Source: Deltaproteobacteria bacterium HGW-Deltaproteobacteria-6
Lineage (GTDB): Bacteria; Desulfobacterota; Syntrophia; Syntrophales; Smithellaceae
Direction of reading: 5' to 3'
DNA length: 64,000 nucleotides
NCBI GenBank assembly: GCA_002840435.1
Contig: PHAT01000002.1
Coordinates: 62,001-126,000, forward strand
In this document: piece by piece, positions 16,985 to 28,639 of the stretch
Layout: each line of letters begins with the position of its first letter
Numbering within the stretch: position 1 is the first letter of the stretch
Notes under the pieces: model-generated
Told to the model about the DNA's origin: nothing
Databases searched by the model: none
The model's input: only the letters and a program-made list of their open reading frames with translations
Position numbers and translations under genes: made by a program

Positions 16985-17866
16985 ATGCACAACCCTTTTC
17001 AAGAAAAAAACACCGACGATGGACGCGATGCCGACTATATCTTGCAATCGCTGAAGGGTGACCAAAACGCTCTGGAAGCTCTGATTCTTCGTCATCAGTC
17101 GTGGGTATTCAACATAGCGCTGACGATGACCGGTGATATTCCACTTGCCGAGGATGTCACGCAGGAAGTCCTGATCAAAGTGATCACAAAATTATCCACT
17201 TACGACCCGCAAAAAGCGGCGTTTCGAACCTGGCTGTATCGTATTGTTGTGAATCACATTGTCAATATGAAGGAAAACAGAAAAGAAAGTTTTTTTTCAA
17301 AAATGATGGAAAGCAATGACGATGAAATGTTCATCAACAACCAGCCGGATCGCCGAAAAACCGTGAGAGTGGAAAATGAACGATTGAAAGAAGAGACAAA
17401 GGCATCCTGCGTCCTTTGCGTGCTCCTGTGCCTGACGAGAAAGGAGCGAATGGTCTTTACCCTGGCGGCCGTCTTTGATGTTACCGACAAAATCGGCGCG
17501 GAGATCTGTGAAATGTCGCGGGTGAATTTCCGGCAGTCCCTGTCCCGCTCCCGTAAAAAAGTATATCAATACTTTATGAAGAATTGCAGTCTGCTTAATG
17601 AAAATAACCCCTGCGCCTGCGCCGATCAGACCAATTATTTGCTCAAGGCGGGGATCATTAATCCTGAGCGGCTGATTGTTGGACAGAATTCGTTGGGAAG
17701 CATCCAAAGCGCATTAGGCAACACGATAAGGGAGGTGGAAGGGTCCTACCATGAATTTATTTCTCTTTTTCGAGACCGGCCTTTTTTGCAGGGACCGGAC
17801 ATGGTTTCATGGCTCAGGGACTTGATGAAAAGCAGTCATTATCGCAGTCTGATGAACTGGACATAA
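16985..17866 (+). CDS. ECF-type RNA polymerase sigma factor with C-terminal extension
   Basis: 293 residues. Region 2 is clear (ALILRHQSWVFNIALTMTGDIPLAEDVTQEVLIKV, then FRTWLYRIVVNHI; residues 35-95) and region 4 follows (LTRKERMVFTLAAVFDVTDKIGAEICEMSRVNFRQSLSRSRKKV, residues 155-195). An extra 95-residue tail carries CSLLNENNPCAC, then helices, resembling the cysteine-containing extensions of some ECF groups that replace a separate anti-sigma factor. No anti-sigma gene is adjacent. GAGGAAAG precedes the ATG. The regulon is unknown. Confidence 0.88.
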   Translation: MHNPFQEKNTDDGRDADYILQSLKGDQNALEALILRHQSWVFNIALTMTGDIPLAEDVTQEVLIKVITKLSTYDPQKAAFRTWLYRIVVNHIVNMKENRKESFFSKMMESNDDEMFINNQPDRRKTVRVENERLKEETKASCVLCVLLCLTRKERMVFTLAAVFDVTDKIGAEICEMSRVNFRQSLSRSRKKVYQYFMKNCSLLNENNPCACADQTNYLLKAGIINPERLIVGQNSLGSIQSALGNTIREVEGSYHEFISLFRDRPFLQGPDMVSWLRDLMKSSHYRSLMNWT

Positions 17867-18432: not shown

Positions 18433-19308
18433 TTGCCTGTTTCCATCGACCTTGTTTTTACAAAAGCTCCTTCGCTTCTCACCATCGGATTATCAATCCT
18501 CCGGGGGTACCGCTTCTCGTTGGACACGGCAAAACCCTTTCCCGCCATGACCGCGAGACGACACGGCATCAAGCCTGATGCCGCGCGCCTGGCCGATTTC
18601 GCGCGGATCTGCGGGATTAAAACCGGCGAAAGCCTGCCGCTCGTTTACCCGCTCACCTATATCTACCCCCTTGTTCAGATCATGCTCGCGCACAAGGAAG
18701 TGCCGCTGTCGCTTTTGAACACGCTCAATATCCGGACGCAAATCATCCGGTACCGCCCCATCCTCCCGGATGAGACATGCGACGTCTGCTGCCGGCTGGC
18801 CCGGCACCGCGTGTTGGAGAAAGGTCTGGAAGTTGATATCGCCTGCGCCCTCCAAATTGCCGGAGTAACTGTCTGGGAAAGCACGATCACCTTCTACTTT
18901 CGCGGGCGTTTCGGCAGCCCCGAGGCCGATTTTGTGCCCCCGCAATTGGAAGCTATTCCGGACGCGCCGGAAATTGCCTGCTGGTTTTTGCCTGCGGGAA
19001 TCGGTTTTGCATTTGCCAAACTGTCGGGTGACGGCAACCCGATTCACTTTTGGAAGTTCTATGCAAAGATGCTCGGCTTTGCGCGCGATTTTGCTCAGCC
19101 GCTGCTTGTTTTGACCAAGGCCCTTTCCTACCTGGACGAGAAACCGTCCCGGGGCAAAGCGCATCTGGATATCGCTTTCAAGGGCCCCGCTTATTATGGA
19201 AGAAACGCCTGTCTGAAAGCGAAAGAAAACACGCAGTCGGAACGCTTCGATATTTACAGCGAGGGCAATCCCCGTCCCTGTATATGCGGAGATCTTCAAT
19301 ACGGATAA
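18433..19308 (+). CDS. MaoC-like hot-dog dehydratase
   Basis: 291 residues read from a TTG start with GAGAGGG ten bases upstream. The second half has the MaoC hydratase signature (LSGDGNPIHFWKFYAKMLGF), giving the catalytic Asp and His of R-specific enoyl-CoA hydratases; the first half looks like a second, diverged hot-dog unit (PLTYIYPLVQIMLAHKEVPLSLLNTLNIRTQI). Such proteins hydrate or dehydrate CoA- or ACP-bound acyl chains. The exact substrate is unknown. It stands alone between the DUF3795 gene and a kinase gene. Confidence 0.8.
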   Translation: MPVSIDLVFTKAPSLLTIGLSILRGYRFSLDTAKPFPAMTARRHGIKPDAARLADFARICGIKTGESLPLVYPLTYIYPLVQIMLAHKEVPLSLLNTLNIRTQIIRYRPILPDETCDVCCRLARHRVLEKGLEVDIACALQIAGVTVWESTITFYFRGRFGSPEADFVPPQLEAIPDAPEIACWFLPAGIGFAFAKLSGDGNPIHFWKFYAKMLGFARDFAQPLLVLTKALSYLDEKPSRGKAHLDIAFKGPAYYGRNACLKAKENTQSERFDIYSEGNPRPCICGDLQYG

Positions 19309-19530: not shown

Positions 19531-19550
19531 TCGCTATACAGGAGCGCATA

Positions 19551-20795
19551 ATGCAGGATCATTTTCTTCTCTTTATTTTGTTTCTGGCGACCACGGCCAT
19601 TGTCAGTTTTGCCTATGCGATCTGGAGAGGCCGCAATGACCAGCAAATACTTCGCAGCATTATTCAAAGCTCTCCCATTCCGACATTCGTTATTTCAACG
19701 GATCATAAAATCCTTCACTGGAATAAAGCCCTGGAAGGACTGAGCAGCATCAAGGCGAATCAAGTGATCGGCACGGACCAGCAATGGCGGGCCTTTTACT
19801 CATCGCCCCGTTCCTGCATGGCCGATTTAATTTTAAAAGACAAAATCAGCAATTCTTCCAGCCTTTACTCAGGGGTGGTTACAAAGTCGAAAGTCCTGAG
19901 GGACGCCTATGAAGTAACGCAATTTTTCCCGGATCTGGGTGAAAAGGGGAAATGGTTCCGGATTACCTCGGCGTGTATTAAGGATTCCAGCGGCAGAGTT
20001 TTCGGCGCCATGGAGACCCTGGAAGACATCACCGACCAGAAAACAGCTGAAGAAGAACTCCTCAAAAGAACCAAGCTCGAATCATTGGGAACGTTCGCTG
20101 ACGGCGTGGCCAAAGACTTTGACAGTTTGCTTTCAGCCATCCTGCGCAATGTTTTCCTGGCTAAAATATCCGCCAATGAAGAAGATAAAATTCTGGAAAA
20201 CGGTCTGGCCATAGCGGAACGGGCCGGTCTGCAAGCCAAAGAACTGGCGCACCGGCTGATTACCTTCGCGCAGGGCGGCTATCCGGTTAAAAAAATCGAG
20301 ACAGTCGGTGAATTAATCAAAGAAACCGTGCAAAAAACCCTGGCCGGTTCCAATGTGACCTGCCAGCCGGTTATCGCGCCGGATCTCTGGCCGACGGAGA
20401 TCGATGCGATGCAGATTAAACAGGTGATTGAAAACATGGTCACCAATGCGAAAGAGGCCATGCCGGACGGCGGTATTGTGGAGGTGATTGCGGAAAACAT
20501 CACAACCGGAACCAACATCCGGATGATGGGTAAAGGCAATTATGTCCGTATTGTTATTAAAGACCAGGGCGTCGGCATTCCCCGCGAAAACCTTTCGAAA
20601 ATATTTGATCCCTATTTCACGACAAAGGAAAAGAAAGACCATGGCGGAATCGGCCTGGGGCTCGCCATCTGTGATTCCATTATTAAATACCACCAGGGGT
20701 TGATCAGTGTGGAATCGCTTGTCGGCGTCGGGACAACGTTTTTCGTCTATCTGGCGGCAGACCCCAATGACACGCGGGAAAATGTACAGCCATAG
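19551..20795 (+). CDS. PAS-domain histidine kinase lacking the phospho-accepting histidine
   Basis: 414 residues: one N-terminal membrane helix (residues 3-22), a PAS domain (about 35-165) and a kinase core. The dimerisation segment aligns with the family pattern GGIAHDFNNLL but reads ADGVAKDFDSLL: the histidine is Lys188 (codon AAA at 20112-20114). The ATP-binding boxes are intact: NMVTNAKEAMPDGG (N box), DQGVGIP (G1), FDPYFTTK (F) and GGIGLGLAI (G2). It may therefore bind ATP but should not autophosphorylate in the normal way, suggesting a pseudokinase or a partner subunit. No response regulator lies next to it. The start has AGGAGC upstream. Confidence 0.85.
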   Translation: MQDHFLLFILFLATTAIVSFAYAIWRGRNDQQILRSIIQSSPIPTFVISTDHKILHWNKALEGLSSIKANQVIGTDQQWRAFYSSPRSCMADLILKDKISNSSSLYSGVVTKSKVLRDAYEVTQFFPDLGEKGKWFRITSACIKDSSGRVFGAMETLEDITDQKTAEEELLKRTKLESLGTFADGVAKDFDSLLSAILRNVFLAKISANEEDKILENGLAIAERAGLQAKELAHRLITFAQGGYPVKKIETVGELIKETVQKTLAGSNVTCQPVIAPDLWPTEIDAMQIKQVIENMVTNAKEAMPDGGIVEVIAENITTGTNIRMMGKGNYVRIVIKDQGVGIPRENLSKIFDPYFTTKEKKDHGGIGLGLAICDSIIKYHQGLISVESLVGVGTTFFVYLAADPNDTRENVQP

Positions 20796-21034: not shown

Positions 21035-21835
21035 TCACACCCGCTCCCGCGTGGACTTCCACGACAGAAAGGCCTTCTTAATGGATTCTGCCGCGCTTTC
21101 AATGCCTACATGCTCCGTATTCACCATCATGTCGTAATGTTTCGGATCGTTGATGTCTTCATTGAAATATTTTTTGATGAAACCGATCTGATAATCATCA
21201 TACTTGCGCACATATTCCAGCGCTTCCGATTGCGTAATGTGACGATCACGCATGACTTTCTCCACACGCGACTGCTCGGGTGCGACAATACGGACACGAA
21301 ATGCCTTGTCTTTCAGAATAAAGCTGCCGCCGCGGCCAATGATGATGATATTGCCGTGCTGCGCGTTGGTGTGCATGACCATCGACAAATGGCGCAGATA
21401 TTCATTAGGCCAGATATGGCGGGCTTCGAAGAAGGAACTGATGAGGCTGTCGAAAAGCGAAATACTTTTTTCATCCAGTGATTTGATGACCTTGTCGCTC
21501 ATATGTGCGCTTTCCGCAACCTTATGGATCAATTCACTGCCGACAATGTTCATTTGCAGTTCTGTGGCCAGAATGCGGGCTATCCAGCCTCCGCCTCCGC
21601 CTGTTTCGCTGGAAAGGGTGATCACGTGCCCCGGCTTTTCCTTTTTCTCTTTCTCCCAGCGCAGCACCTGATCTTCAACCAGCTTATCGACGTCCTTATC
21701 GCGCAGTTTAATATCCCGGGTGTAATCCGGGCAATTGACATCATAGAGGGCATTCGTTTTCACCCGATAACGCTTCGTGCATTCCCCGCGCCACGCGCAG
21801 ATGACGCAAATCCTTTTATCCGATCCTGTTGACAT
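21035..21835 (-). CDS. Cytidylate-kinase-like family protein
   Basis: 266 residues. The central and C-terminal parts match the AAA-type cytidylate-kinase-like family (VITLSSETGGGGGWIARILATEL as the nucleotide loop; IIIIGRGGSFIL; FRVRIVAPEQSRVEKVMRDR). The P-loop is glycine-rich rather than a standard GxxGxGK. A short N-terminal segment has CVICAWRGEC and a later Cys, resembling a small metal-binding motif. These proteins are distinct from housekeeping Cmk, and the substrate is not established. It starts 26 bp after atpG and is probably co-transcribed with the N-ATPase genes. Confidence 0.8.
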   Translation of the reverse strand: MSTGSDKRICVICAWRGECTKRYRVKTNALYDVNCPDYTRDIKLRDKDVDKLVEDQVLRWEKEKKEKPGHVITLSSETGGGGGWIARILATELQMNIVGSELIHKVAESAHMSDKVIKSLDEKSISLFDSLISSFFEARHIWPNEYLRHLSMVMHTNAQHGNIIIIGRGGSFILKDKAFRVRIVAPEQSRVEKVMRDRHITQSEALEYVRKYDDYQIGFIKKYFNEDINDPKHYDMMVNTEHVGIESAAESIKKAFLSWKSTRERV

Positions 21836-21861
21836 GGGCCAGTCCCCCTTTCTGAATAAAG

Positions 21862-22752
21862 TTATGATGCCTCTTCCTGCAGCGCTTCAAATCCGGCAAC
21901 GATGTCAAGAAGCTCTTCGGTGATGGTCATCTGTCGTGTGCGGTGAAACTGCACATGCAGATCCTGCAACTGTTCTTCAATGTTCTTTTCGGCATTCTGC
22001 ATGGATGCGAGACGACTGGCGTTTTCACTGGCCAGGGATTCGGCGAATGCCCGGTACAAAGACACAAAAAGATATTCACGGATCAGCGAAGAAAAAATCT
22101 TGTCGGTGTCCATCCGGAAAATCGGCAGCGATTTGGAATCCCATTTTTTCCTGGCAATTGTCGTCAGCCAGTCCGTATTGACCGGCAGAAGTTGGAGCAT
22201 ATGAGGGTGGTAAGTGGCGCCGGTGACATATTCATTATAAAACAACAGAAAATGATCAATGTTGTTGCGAAAATGCCATTCGTCGATAATCATGATGATT
22301 TCCTGCACCAACGGCGTGATGCCCGCCGTGGAGCTCGGTGTGGTCAATAGCTCGTCCACAGGCTGTCCCGCATCTTCCACATAATCGGCCACGCGCGCGC
22401 CGACGGAAAGCACTTTGCGGTTTTCTTTTTTAACGCCGCTTTTTTTAAGATAGTCGAGCATGAAAACGGATATCTGCTCATTGAGCTGTCCGCACAGCCC
22501 CTGATCGGAGCCGAAAACAATGACGCCGAGCCGTTTCATCTTTGTATGCTTCTGACGCATTGTTGTGCCCATTTTTTCCTTGAGCACAATCTGCAGGCCC
22601 ATTTCGACCGTCCGGTTGTAATCGCGCAGAGAATCCACCGCCCGCTGATATTGACGAATGCTCACCGCCGCCAGGGCTTTCATCGTCTTGACGACGGATA
22701 AAAGATCACCCGCGCTTTTCATTCTTCTTTTCAGGGACTCAGTTGTTTGCAT
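21862..22752 (-). CDS. atpG: N-ATPase F1 gamma subunit
   Basis: Rotor shaft subunit. The N-terminal coil ([36 protein letters not shown]), the block [14 protein letters not shown] and the C-terminal coil with [18 protein letters not shown] match ATP synthase gamma. The start is placed at ATG 22752 ([10 protein letters not shown]), inside the end of atpA; GAGG precedes it. The sequence is of the shorter N-ATPase type. It is the last ATPase gene of the operon. Confidence 0.93.
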
Positions 22753-24307
22753 TGGCATCCTCAATTTCTTCAAACGGTTGAATGGCCGGTTTGATTTTAT
22801 TCATGATGCTGTCGCGATCCGCTATATCCATTTTCTTACCGTCTTCAATACGCGCGCACAATTCCGGCAGCTGATCTCTGACGGTTTCCAGAAGCTTTGC
22901 CTCCACCTCGCGAATCTTTTCCGTCGGAACAAGATCCAGCGCGCCGCCGGTCACCGAAAGCAGGGAGGCAATCTGTTCGGAGGCCCGCAGCGGTTTGTAT
23001 TGCCCCTGTTTCAGAATTTCACGAACCCGCCAGCCTCTCTCCAGCGTCCGGCGGGTGCTTTCATCAAGTCTTGTGCCGAAGCGGGAGAAGGATTCCAGTT
23101 CTTCGAACTGTGAGTAGGAAAGTCTGAGATCGCCGGCCACGGACCGATAAGCGGGCAGCTGTGTTTTACCGCCCACCCGCGATACCGATTTGCCGACATC
23201 CACCGCCGGCAGGATGCCTTTGCTGAAAAGAACCGGCGAGAGATAAATCTGTCCGTCGGTGATGGAAATCAGATTGGTCGGGATGTAAGACGACATGTCC
23301 TGCGCTTCCGTTTCGGTAATCGGCAGCGACGTCAGCGACCCGCCGCCCAGTTCCGGCTTCATATGCGTGGAGCGCTCAAGCAGCCGGGAATGGATATAAA
23401 AAATATCGCCGGGGAAAGCTTCGCGTCCGGGAGGACGCCGCAAAAGCAGCGACACTTCACGGTAGGCTCGGGCGTGTGATGTCAGATCATCGTAAATAAT
23501 CAAGACATCTCGTCCCTGCTCCACGAAATATTCTCCCATACTGGTGGCCGCGTACGGCGCGATAAACTGCAGGCCCGGCGTGTCTTCTCCGGTGGCTACC
23601 ACCACAATGCATGATCCCATGACACCGTGATCCCGCAGATCGGCAATCACCTTCGCCACATCCGCGCTTTTCTTGCCGACGGCGCAATAAATGGAAATGA
23701 TGCCGGTTTCCTTTTGATTGATAATGGTATCCACGGCGATGGCCGTTTTGCCGGTCATTCTGTCACCCAGAATTAATTCGCGCTGACCGCGTCCGACGGG
23801 AATAAGCGCGTCGATCACCTTGATGCCCGTCTGAAGCGGCACGACAACCGGAGCGCGGTCCATAACCGCCGGAGCCGGTCTTTCCACCGGCAGCCGCATG
23901 ACGGTATTGACTTCGCCCAGACCGTCGAGCGGTCTTCCCAGGGGATCGACCACCCGTCCTAAAAGAGCGTCTCCCACCGGTACATCCAGTACCCGTTTCG
24001 TGCGCTGCACTTCCGATCCCACCTGGATGTGTTCACTGGGATCCAGAAGAATCACCCCGATTTCCTTCGGATCGATATTGAAAACAAGTCCCATATAATT
24101 TCCCGAAAAGCGAACCAGTTCCTCCGCGCGGATATGGGGCAAACCGCTGACCCGGGCAATATCGCGTCCGACAAATTGCACGGTGCCGATTTCATACTGC
24201 CTCAGCTCAGGGTTCTGCTCGTCTAAGACCTTTTCCATCGTATCGAACGTATCATCCAGAAAGGTCTTCAATTCCTGATTTTCGACTTTATTCACGTCTT
24301 GATTCAT
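22739..24307 (-). CDS. atpA: N-ATPase F1 alpha subunit
   Basis: 522 residues. Non-catalytic nucleotide-binding subunit with Walker [10 protein letters not shown], Walker B-like [25 protein letters not shown] and the family block [17 protein letters not shown]. The N-terminus is that of the alternate (N-type) class ([41 protein letters not shown]) rather than the housekeeping alpha. GGGAGG precedes the ATG. It lies downstream of the b subunit, with no atpH (delta) gene between them. Confidence 0.96.
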
Positions 24308-24373
24308 TATTCGCCTCCCGACCTTATTTCCATAATTGCCTATCGTGCCCCCTTGCCAAGGGAGCCGGCCTTG

Positions 24374-25144
24374 TTACGCCGCATGCGCCTCTTTCTGGAG
24401 CGTTTCGGTCAGACTCTCCACCAGGGTCTCCAGATACTCATTGAGACTCCAGGCGATTTTATGCCCGTTCACCCGCATTTCAATGCCTGACACAATATCC
24501 GGCTGTTTCATGTAGCGAATCGTAAAGCCATTGGTGATTTGCTTTTTCAGGACTTCCTCAATTTGCGTCTGTCTGGGAGCGGGAACGTCAAAAGCGCTCT
24601 GGATGATCACCCTGTTGCCGCCGCCGCTGATCGCTTTGCGCATCTGAGTGCTTTTTTCTTCATCAAGCGCCTGGATGCGCCGCAGAAATTCATCAACAAT
24701 CCGTTCCTCCAGATCGGCATCCGCCAGATCCGAGAGCGCCTTGCGCGCCGTGGCATACAACTGCTTGGCCGCCCTCTGGCGCAGGTCATAGAAGAAGGCA
24801 TCCTGCTCCCGGACGAGCATGTCCTGCCAGCGTGTTTTGACCGCGTCTACTTCGACGCGCACCTTTTCCATCAGTTCCTTGCGCTTGGCATCAGCCGCCA
24901 TCGTTGCCTCATTGAGCATGATCTCCTTTTTCTCATTGAGGACCTGGTTGCGCTTCTCATAAAGCAGGGCTTCCTCTTTGGCCTTGGCTTTCAGGTCTTC
25001 GGCTTCGGCAAAGCGTGCGGCAATTTTTGCTTCCCGGTCATCCATGGCCTTGATAATCCGCCCGTAAAGAAAGCGTTTCAGCAAGTACATGAGCAGGAGG
25101 AAATTAAAGATTTGCGCTAAAAAAACAAACCAGTCGATATGCAT
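24374..25144 (-). CDS. atpF: N-ATPase Fo b subunit with delta-like C-terminal part
   Basis: 256 residues, about 100 longer than a standard b subunit. It has an N-terminal membrane helix (VFLAQIFNFLLLMYLLKRFLYGRIIKAM), a long charged coil (residues 35-150) and a C-terminal segment ending IVSGIEMRVNGHKIAWSLNEYLETL that resembles the end of ATP synthase delta. This would explain the absence of atpH: the stator is made from a b-delta fusion, as in known N-ATPases. The start has GAGGGGG upstream and follows atpE closely. Confidence 0.92.
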   Translation of the reverse strand: MHIDWFVFLAQIFNFLLLMYLLKRFLYGRIIKAMDDREAKIAARFAEAEDLKAKAKEEALLYEKRNQVLNEKKEIMLNEATMAADAKRKELMEKVRVEVDAVKTRWQDMLVREQDAFFYDLRQRAAKQLYATARKALSDLADADLEERIVDEFLRRIQALDEEKSTQMRKAISGGGNRVIIQSAFDVPAPRQTQIEEVLKKQITNGFTIRYMKQPDIVSGIEMRVNGHKIAWSLNEYLETLVESLTETLQKEAHAA

Positions 25145-25156
25145 GGATCATCCCCC

Positions 25157-25423
25157 TCACTTTATAATGAAACTCCAGAAAGGATTGGCGAAAATCAGAA
25201 TCATGGAAATAACGAAGCAGTAAATGGCAATGGATTCAATCATGGCCAATCCGACAAAAAGTGTTCTGGTTAAAGAATTCCTCTCATCCGGCTGCTGAGC
25301 GATCGCGGCCAGTGCCTGGGCGATTGCCTGCCCCATACCCAGACCGGGGCCAATTGAACCGATCCCCATTGCCAAACCCGCACCAATAATCGAGGCCATC
25401 GCGACGAGACTTACTTTGTCCAT
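25157..25423 (-). CDS. atpE: N-ATPase Fo c subunit
   Basis: 88 residues forming a two-helix hairpin. The ion-binding carboxylate is Glu63 (AMIESIAIYCFV). Compared with the sodium-type c ring of Ilyobacter, Pro26, Glu63, Ser64 and Tyr68 are kept, but the helix-1 glutamine ligand is Met30 (PGLGMGQ) and the helix-2 threonine is Ile65. A loop QQPDERN joins the helices. The ring would carry H+ or Na+; the missing ligands argue against a classical Na+ site. AGGAGG lies before the ATG. Confidence 0.95.
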   Translation of the reverse strand: MDKVSLVAMASIIGAGLAMGIGSIGPGLGMGQAIAQALAAIAQQPDERNSLTRTLFVGLAMIESIAIYCFVISMILIFANPFWSFIIK

Positions 25424-25450
25424 AAAAACTCCTCCTTTAATTCAAATTTG

Positions 25451-26176
25451 TCAGGCTGGAGAGCCTTCTTTCTTTACTTCTACGTGAACTTCATCCTCTG
25501 CGCTGAGCGCGGAGGCTATATAGACCATGGAAAGGATTGCGAAGATATAAGCCTGAATCACGCCGATCAAGAGCCCCAGGATCTGCATGACAACCGGGAA
25601 CAAAAAGGGCGTGACCGCCAGCAGAATTCCGATAACCTTCTCATGACTCATGATGTTGCCGAAAAGACGAACGGTAAGCGCCAGCGTCCGGGACAATTCG
25701 CCCATGACATGGAACGGGAAAAAGATAAAATTAGGCTGAAAATATTCCTTCACATAATGCAAAATGCCGTTGCGTGATATTCCGTAGTAGGGCACGGCAA
25801 TAAAAACGCAGGTGGCTAGTGCCGCTGTGGTGGTCATGGACGACGTCGGTGCGACAAACCCCGGTACAATGACCAGCACATTGGATATGCAAATGAACAG
25901 AAAGAGCGTCCCGACCAGAGGGACATAATGATCCGCGCCCTTTTTCGTCATCTCGCCGATTTCACCCCGGATAACGGAAATAATTACTTCCATGAAATGC
26001 TGCCAGCGCGACACATTCATTTCCGAAGACAGGTTGCGGGTGATCAGCCAGGAACCGCCGACCAGAATAGCCATGACCAGCCATGTATAGAGGATCGTTA
26101 CATTGAGGATGATAAATCCCCAACTCCAGATAATGACCTGATCCGGGCTGATTTGATTGAGCGCTACGACTTCCAT
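25451..26176 (-). CDS. atpB: N-ATPase Fo a subunit
   Basis: 241 residues with about six membrane helices. The essential stator arginine lies in LALTVRLFGNIMSHE, and the C-terminal helix QAYIFAILSMVYIASAL is typical. It forms the ion half-channels against the c ring. The N-terminal part is the short N-ATPase form (MEVVALNQISPDQVIIWSWG). AAGGAG precedes the start. Confidence 0.95.
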   Translation of the reverse strand: MEVVALNQISPDQVIIWSWGFIILNVTILYTWLVMAILVGGSWLITRNLSSEMNVSRWQHFMEVIISVIRGEIGEMTKKGADHYVPLVGTLFLFICISNVLVIVPGFVAPTSSMTTTAALATCVFIAVPYYGISRNGILHYVKEYFQPNFIFFPFHVMGELSRTLALTVRLFGNIMSHEKVIGILLAVTPFLFPVVMQILGLLIGVIQAYIFAILSMVYIASALSAEDEVHVEVKKEGSPA

Positions 26177-26208
26177 AGTAACTCCTTTAACGGTTGATCA
26201 ATGCCTGT

Positions 26209-26508
26209 CTATTCATGAACGGCTTCCATCGTCTTTTGGGGTCCGAAACGATTAGTGAGGATTTTGCGCATGGCCACAAAACCGATCATGGCCGCAACCA
26301 GCCGCTCCCAATGACCGCCCTGCATCATCAGGTAAAATGCCGTTAAGACGACCGCGAGGCGCAGGACGTAACTGACGGCCAGCAGGCGCACGCGGTTTTC
26401 CGTCTGTCCCAGCTTCTGCACGGTCTGCCACAGACTGATAAAGTAGAAAGCTCCCAGAGCCAGTCCCGCGGCAAACATCAGAATAATAAGCATCGCGTTC
26501 ATATTCAT
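26209..26508 (-). CDS. atpR: N-ATPase accessory membrane protein AtpR
   Basis: 99 residues from the ATG at 26508, preceded by GAGGA at the end of the previous gene. Three membrane segments are seen (AMLIILMFAAGLALGAFYFISLW; VSYVLRLAVVLTAFYLMM; LVAAMIGFVAMRKIL). AtpR is found only in N-ATPase operons, in this position between AtpQ and the a subunit. It is thought to work with the c ring; its exact role is not established. Confidence 0.88.
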   Translation of the reverse strand: MNMNAMLIILMFAAGLALGAFYFISLWQTVQKLGQTENRVRLLAVSYVLRLAVVLTAFYLMMQGGHWERLVAAMIGFVAMRKILTNRFGPQKTMEAVHE

Positions 26509-26509
26509 G

Positions 26510-26839
26510 TCAGTCCTCTTCAATAATCCTGCTGCGAATTTTTCTGACCCAGTAAGCGGCGTTAATGCACCCGACGATCACGCCGAGAACCAGAAACATC
26601 AGCGCCCAGGAATACTGGGTGGGCCAGGTCCGGTCTATCCAGAGCCCCAGAGCGACTCCAATCAGCGTGGGGATGGACACCGCCCATCCGATGATGCCGA
26701 ACATCCCCAAGCCGAACCAGACGGTTTCACTTTTATGTTTAAGTCCCTTAATCCGCAGAGCCTCCCTTTGAGCGACCTTTTCGGTGAAATGATCCGCCGC
26801 TTTCTGGCGCCGTTTGGATGTCCGTCTTATTTCGACCAT
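26510..26839 (-). CDS. atpQ: N-ATPase accessory protein AtpQ (AtpI/AtpZ-like)
   Basis: 109 residues: a basic soluble N-terminus (MVEIRRTSKRRQKAADHF), then two membrane helices (FGIIGWAVSIPTLIGVALGLWID; WALMFLVLGVIVGCINAAYWV). This is the AtpI/AtpZ-like fold that occupies the AtpQ slot of N-ATPase operons. A role in assembly or in metal transport is known for related proteins, not shown here. Its stop overlaps the ribosome-site region of atpR. Confidence 0.88.
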   Translation of the reverse strand: MVEIRRTSKRRQKAADHFTEKVAQREALRIKGLKHKSETVWFGLGMFGIIGWAVSIPTLIGVALGLWIDRTWPTQYSWALMFLVLGVIVGCINAAYWVRKIRSRIIEED

Positions 26840-26880
26840 GGTTCATTCTCCTGTATTGCGGCGTGTTCGGGGAACCCGCC

Positions 26881-28639
<1,759 letters not shown>

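Follow-up and report, generated by a model that had tools for sequence, protein, structure and literature searches.

A Syntrophales lineage of probable PAS-containing pseudo-histidine kinases with a conserved lysine at the phospho-acceptor site

A histidine-kinase-like protein encoded by Deltaproteobacteria bacterium HGW-Deltaproteobacteria-6 (Syntrophales, Smithellaceae) carries lysine where the phospho-acceptor histidine is expected, and this lysine is shared by all orthologues recovered from the order. The gene lies in the window, the 64,000-nucleotide stretch of DNA analysed here, which is part of a 4.09-Mb assembly. We consider it probable that the product is a membrane-anchored PAS pseudo-histidine kinase that works by allosteric docking under the control of nucleotide and of its PAS domain. 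A signal at the PAS domain, together with ATP or ADP bound by the CA domain, would shift the conformation of the DHp. A partner would then be bound and regulated in trans by the DHp surface, of which Arg199 and Phe202 form part. The partner would most likely be a receiver domain or another kinase, and no phosphotransfer would be performed by the pseudokinase itself. We infer the docking, its nucleotide control and the nature of the partner from comparative sequence data.

Gene, domains and residue 188

The reading frame listed in Table 1 begins with ATG and runs without an internal stop through 414 codons, which agrees with the original prediction that the gene is whole. The codon AAA at 20112-20114 places Lys188 at the phospho-acceptor position, in the context G-V-A-K-D-F-D-S-L-L (LESLGTFADGVAKDFDSLLSAILRN) as opposed to GIAHDFNNLL in canonical relatives, and the Asn pair at +3 and +4 is altered to Asp191-Ser192. 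Both changes had been read from the sequence beforehand and are borne out. The canonical comparison class (HDFNN) is one that we take to be HPK4-like, and the +4 position after the histidine is presumably the phosphatase position.

In the 414-residue protein, Pfam matched PAS and HATPase_c, and no HisKA match was obtained at E<=0.01. The N, G1, F and G2 boxes of canonical HisKA-type kinases are all present, confirming that the PAS domain and the ATP-binding boxes are intact. A histidine-kinase-like DHp and CA without the phospho-acceptor histidine is the combination by which a pseudo-histidine kinase is recognized. Such a protein would be expected to bind nucleotide and, because of Lys188, to lack autokinase activity. 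With 26 input rows, AlphaFold2 gave pLDDT values of 51-62 in the DHp; with 39 rows the mean pLDDT was 82.6, with 59-76 over residues 171-250 and a pTM of 0.47, values for which the domain arrangement was not drawn on as evidence. A Foldseek search with the model confirmed the PAS-DHp-CA fold and nothing more.

The PAS subfamily, with a motif around WRAFY..RPC.ADL, occurs in many proteins of the order at about 48-58% identity, sometimes in tandem. All 26 aligned sequences share its Cys89 (19815-19817).

Table 1. Features of the pseudo-histidine kinase gene and adjoining genes, in window coordinates
Feature	Position	Strand	Basis
AGGAG, Shine-Dalgarno-like, 6 nt 5' of ATG	19540..19544	+	by eye, unscored
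Pseudo-histidine kinase gene, 414 aa, TM-PAS-DHp-CA	19551..20795	+	sequence, Pfam, AlphaFold2 model
Lone hydrophobic N-terminal stretch (residues ~5-25), presumed membrane anchor	19563..19625	+	by eye; model helix 2-39
PAS domain (residues 28-165)	19632..20045	+	Pfam PAS, PAS_4, PAS_9; model
DHp helix 1, conserved core (residues 177-209)	20079..20177	+	orthologue alignment; model helix 161-207
Lys188 codon AAA	20112..20114	+	sequence, orthologue alignment
Asp191-Ser192 replacing Asn-Asn (+3, +4)	20121..20126	+	sequence, alignments
Arg199 (+11) to Phe202 (+14)	20145..20156	+	alignment
DHp helix 2 (residues 213-240)	20187..20270	+	model, alignment
CA (HATPase_c) domain (residues ~246-405)	20286..20765	+	Pfam HATPase_c 285-402; model
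N box (Q291..A303)	20421..20459	+	orthologue alignment; E294, N295, N299 in 42/42
G1 box DQGVGI	20562..20579	+	orthologue alignment; D338, G340, G342 in 42/42
F box FDPYFTTK	20604..20627	+	orthologue alignment; T357 in 41/42, others 42/42
G2 box GGIGLGL	20643..20663	+	orthologue alignment
Cytidylate_kin2 gene, convergent neighbour	21035..21835	-	Pfam; also adjoins gene in G028 (same family) and G146 (another family, Gln version)
F-type ATPase gamma and alpha genes, end of ATPase operon	21862..24307	-	Pfam, gene neighbourhoods

Fixation of lysine and loss of histidine in the order

A whole-protein search of 155 genomes of the order recovered 42 orthologues (identity at least 64%, two of them partial) in 41 genomes, namely 39 of the 51 genomes of the family and two genomes of another family. 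The orthologue alignment called for by the original prediction places Lys at site 188 in all 42, followed by Asp189, Phe190 and Asp191, and the lysine codon varies synonymously (AAA in 22, AAG in 20). At +4 the residue is Ser in 35, Asn in four and Gly in three, while His234 in helix 2 is invariant. The nucleotide-box positions checked are likewise invariant where present, save T357 and Q291 (40/42); one row stops before residue 371. In G028 the gene is present and an assembly gap spans site 188, and the L117 row was left out for an assembly gap. Seven near-complete genomes of the family (G022, G023, G024, G027, G034, G074 and G078) gave no Lys copy at E<=1e-62, and the absence of the gene from the search results for the first five indicates that it is not required everywhere. 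A scan of named records (48 loci, of which four, L094-L097, are only distant matches) placed it in Smithella, Smithellaceae, Syntrophaceae and Deltaproteobacteria MAGs and in Smithella sp. SCADC (L083). Among the next-best loci of the window's own genome (L002-L020), a simple pattern found an AHDFNN- or AHDLNN-type box in 16 of 19; L003 reads AHEINNP, and L008 and L012 gave no clear read.

Several genomes hold more than one version. G098 carries Lys and Gln copies about 5 kb apart (L098), and G009 has two Lys versions (L036, L146). In G119, Gln and Lys versions (L108, L112) occur together, the latter as a 355-residue open frame that begins inside the PAS domain and contains one ambiguous residue.

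More distant relatives in the order (46-57% identity) differ at site 188. Histidine is present in L101, L104, L106, L107, L109, L110, L115 and L118, and also in L121, a match starting at residue 180 that was read separately and stands outside the residue list, both trees and the DHp-position counts. Glutamine is found in L098, L099, L102, L103, L108, L111 and L113, Asn in L105, Glu in L100 and Arg in L114, with Lys in the second copy of L098 and in L112. L088, L089 and L090 duplicate loci of this set, having been taken from the named collection. By comparison, each of the 28 aligned rows from outside the clade has His. When 395 genomes were sampled evenly across the phylum, with the order itself contributing at least 16, seven genomes outside the order matched at E<=1e-75, all with HDFNN and all outside the clade. 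The earlier statement that the histidine is invariant in this subfamily therefore applies to the 28 outside rows and does not extend to the protein's own clade, where H, K, Q, E, R or N occupies the site.

In a careful tree, built from 40 of the 86 quick-tree rows with five box columns removed, 20 of 22 His-less rows fell in one clade (support 98/98), and the remaining two (Q, N) grouped beside the His-bearing L107. The quick tree of 86 rows, from which only column 188 was removed, recovered the same clade. The fewest changes on the tree are two for loss of His and eight for residue identity; by parsimony on these alignments, the phospho-acceptor was lost at least twice.

The closest His-bearing kin are Syntrophales hybrids (L101, L104, L106, L109 and L110; 50-55% identical), which have the PAS subfamily, the LRNIF helix and the CA domain in common with the window protein but are longer and carry the HDFNN histidine and a C-terminal receiver (L106 being cut by a contig end). 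Receivers are present in the His-bearing forms of one group (f16) and in the H, Q and N forms of a second (f17), and absent from the short forms, the window protein included. In the f16 hybrids the conserved receiver Lys is replaced by Val or Ile in all seven readable cases (L101, L104, L109, L110 and L118 aligned, L115 and L121 by eye). In the f17 forms it is Lys with His and Arg with Gln or Asn. This conserved lysine matters in receivers, and the phosphorelay seems, from these substitutions, to have been loosened at both its ends.

A possible but tentative account is that the phosphorelay was dismantled stepwise within one order while the docking surface was kept, the end product being a nucleotide-reading allosteric hub. 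The series would have started from His-bearing hybrids with altered receivers and passed through forms that lack the His and keep the receiver (Gln, Asn). It would have ended in short TM-PAS-DHp-CA proteins with neither, in which Lys became fixed in Smithellaceae and Q, E, R and K drifted elsewhere. The DHp of such a hub would be under stronger constraint than in working kinases.

Constraint on the DHp domain and candidate partners

Conservation is concentrated in the DHp. Mean entropy over the 42 orthologues is lowest for DHp helix 1 (0.18 bits), followed by the remainder of the DHp (0.33), the CA (0.82) and the PAS domain (0.90), and 25 of the 33 positions of the helix 1 core are invariant. 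Median dN/dS within the genus was 0.015 for the DHp, 0.019 for helix 1, 0.099 for the CA and 0.091 for the PAS domain (Nei-Gojobori, 91 pairs of 14 members, 87-90 usable), ratios that are rough, since mean dS is 1.0-1.5 and near saturation in many pairs. One canonical hybrid kinase (L132 type) served as the rate control. In four shared genomes, dN/dS was 0.088 (DHp) and 0.110 (CA) for the control, as against 0.008 (four of six pairs usable) and 0.089 for the pseudokinase. Across 15 pairs from the six genomes shared with the control, pairwise identity was higher in the pseudokinase in 15 of 15 for the DHp, in 14 with one tie for helix 1 and in 12 for the CA, the control CA being the more identical in the other three. 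L162, only 30% identical and not orthologous to the control, was left out. The pseudokinase is thus better conserved overall than this single control gene and, judged by it, the DHp is constrained at least as tightly as that of a working kinase. Together with the fixed Lys, this purifying selection supports the earlier suggestion of a selected pseudokinase.

Part of the conserved surface is clade-specific. All 18 deeper His-less rows, a subset of the quick tree's 50 His-less rows chosen to thin close orthologues, combine Arg (+11) with Phe (+14), versus Gly at +11 in 28/28 and S/T/E/D at +14 in 24/28 canonical rows. Seven of the eight His-bearing sisters have Arg at +11 and all eight have Phe at +14, so that R199 and F202 were retained through loss of the His. 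In EnvZ the +11 position is one of those that set receiver specificity, and its conservation would fit receiver docking.

The surroundings of the gene were searched for a partner. No response regulator gene is conserved beside the pseudokinase in the neighbour clusters and lists examined. An NtrC-type regulator (convergent, in L078, L079 and L092) was rejected as cognate, its own kinase adjoining it in L078 and L092. Function was not deduced from neighbours either (the ATPase and cytidylate-kinase-like genes, radC with a FAD gene, or a 730-aa synthetase-like gene), as linkage varies by genus and therefore informs orthology, not function. Two such linkages connect variants with the Lys gene. 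In G146 the Gln version is flanked by the ATPase and Cytidylate_kin2 genes found in the window's genus, although its orientation is opposite; in G108 the Glu version adjoins the radC and FAD-gene pair, as in L082-L084. At E<=1e-8, no stand-alone regulator of the own genome matched the receiver of L107, the sole match being the receiver of the canonical hybrid kinase L132. This kinase is present in only 8 of 51 family genomes, and a split-off receiver or L132 was rejected as a general partner.

Within the window, the F-type ATPase operon followed by the Cytidylate_kin2 gene occupies 21035-28636 (-), a linkage that recurs in G028 and G146. By eye, and with Pfam for alpha and gamma only, the operon begins with beta and epsilon and ends with alpha and gamma, an arrangement that recalls N-ATPases. 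On the other side lie a Sigma-70-like factor (16985-17866, +; Sigma70_r2 and r4_2, of ECF-like size) that is extended by ~100 aa at its C-terminus, and a 291-aa ORF with a TTG start (18433-19308, +) and no Pfam match at E<=0.001.

In terms of co-occurrence, the best candidate is a kinase from the window's own genome, encoded in a 753-aa frame, that has the PAS subfamily in common with the pseudokinase (55% identity), though its DHp type differs. Of the 39 family genomes that contain the gene, 35 also have this kinase, as do 7 of the 12 without the gene (Fisher p 0.024; p 0.016 for the 37 genomes listed as at least 90% complete), a weak association that is confounded with phylogeny, for which neither value is corrected. 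This lead bears on an alternative that we regard as unlikely, in which the protein is the catalytic half of a heterodimer and its CA domain phosphorylates the His of another kinase paired through the DHp. Such a role would agree with the intact CA boxes, with a CA dN/dS as low as that of a working kinase (0.099 versus 0.110), with the highly conserved DHp and with the co-occurrence itself. Pairing through the DHp is nevertheless improbable for a partner whose own box reads AHEINNP; moreover, this kinase is also found in G027 and G034, where the gene was not found, and only 7 of the 39 genomes with the gene have the L132-type kinase, the best canonical match within the own genome.

Remaining explanations and known pseudokinases

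The original prediction had offered two roles, an allosteric partner and a phosphatase, of which the former is favoured by the alignments and the latter weakened. A dedicated phosphatase of a response regulator could still draw on D189 (+1), kept in 42/42, on the few orthologues with Asn at +4, and on the statement of a review that HisKA phosphatase activity does not strictly require the His (PMC12632262). Outside those few, the +4 Asn is gone from the orthologues, and it occurs in 0 of 18 deeper His-less rows versus 28 of 28 canonical rows. Furthermore, the same review argues against phosphatase activity as a general role of such proteins (PMC12632262), and DivL is described as not being a phosphatase (PMC4211667). 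We hold this role to be very improbable.

It is just as doubtful that the protein is an active kinase with another acceptor, be it Lys188, His234 of helix 2 or a Ser, Thr or Tyr of another protein. The intact CA domain and the invariance of His234 among the orthologues would be compatible with this, and retained kinase activity has been suggested for the His-less chloroplast sensor kinase (PMC5054060). However, relatives keep Gln, Glu, Asn or Arg at position 188, among them the syntenic loci with Gln (G146) and Glu (G108), which makes Lys unlikely as a new phospho-acceptor. Four of the 18 His-less rows have Phe or Asn at position 234, and six of the eight His-bearing sisters have His there, which argues against a relocated acceptor. 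Finally, decay, a frameshift or a sequencing error, with nothing but the missing His in its favour, is effectively refuted by the whole frame, by Lys in every orthologue where sister species might have shown His, by the two lysine codons and by a DHp constrained more tightly than the rest of the protein rather than relaxed.

Pseudo-histidine kinases are already known as a kind. HisKA domains without the His made up 0.9% (722/76,471) of those analysed in the review (PMC12632262). DivL resembles the window protein in its PAS-DHp-CA order, retained kinase boxes, replaced acceptor His and conserved patch around the site. It differs in having several PAS domains, weak ATP-analogue binding and action with DivK~P and CckA, and in its residue, Tyr in Caulobacter and other alphaproteobacteria or Ala in Magnetospirillum; its Y550H change alone does not lead to labelling with ATP (PMC4211667). 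The orthologues have Lys and their relatives Q, E, R or N, the nearest named records are not alphaproteobacterial, and a PDB profile search matched DivL (4q20) over the CA part only.

NifL of Azotobacter vinelandii likewise combines a PAS sensor, an H domain and a nucleotide-binding GHKL domain, and controls its target by complex formation stabilised by ADP. Its two PAS domains, one with FAD, the His in its H domain and its target NifA set it apart (PMC9866876). A NifL structure (PDB 9qq6) was among the PDB profile and Foldseek matches, and one PAS domain is present in the window protein according to Pfam and the model. The nifL and nifA genes are adjacent, and no nifA was found beside the gene in the window or in the neighbour loci listed.

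The chloroplast sensor kinase CSK is comparable in that its His is replaced variously (Tyr, Gln, Glu) across lineages with ATP binding kept; it is a plastid protein of plants and algae whose G2 box is unrecognisable in higher plants, whereas the boxes are intact here (PMC5054060). RocA of group A Streptococcus is a membrane-bound pseudokinase acting on an active kinase, CovS, but its CA is without the residues for kinase function (PMC7028121). The present lineage does not appear in the titles or abstracts covered on histidine pseudokinases or on Smithella two-component systems and histidine kinases, a body of literature that lies mostly outside subscription journals.

Most pseudo-histidine kinases in the literature encountered stand alone as individual examples. 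In this order, by comparison, related genes encode His-bearing, intermediate and His-less forms, and swaps between close homologues could reveal what the DHp and CA do once phosphotransfer is gone. In syntrophic bacteria, a strong histidine-kinase match need not mean a kinase.
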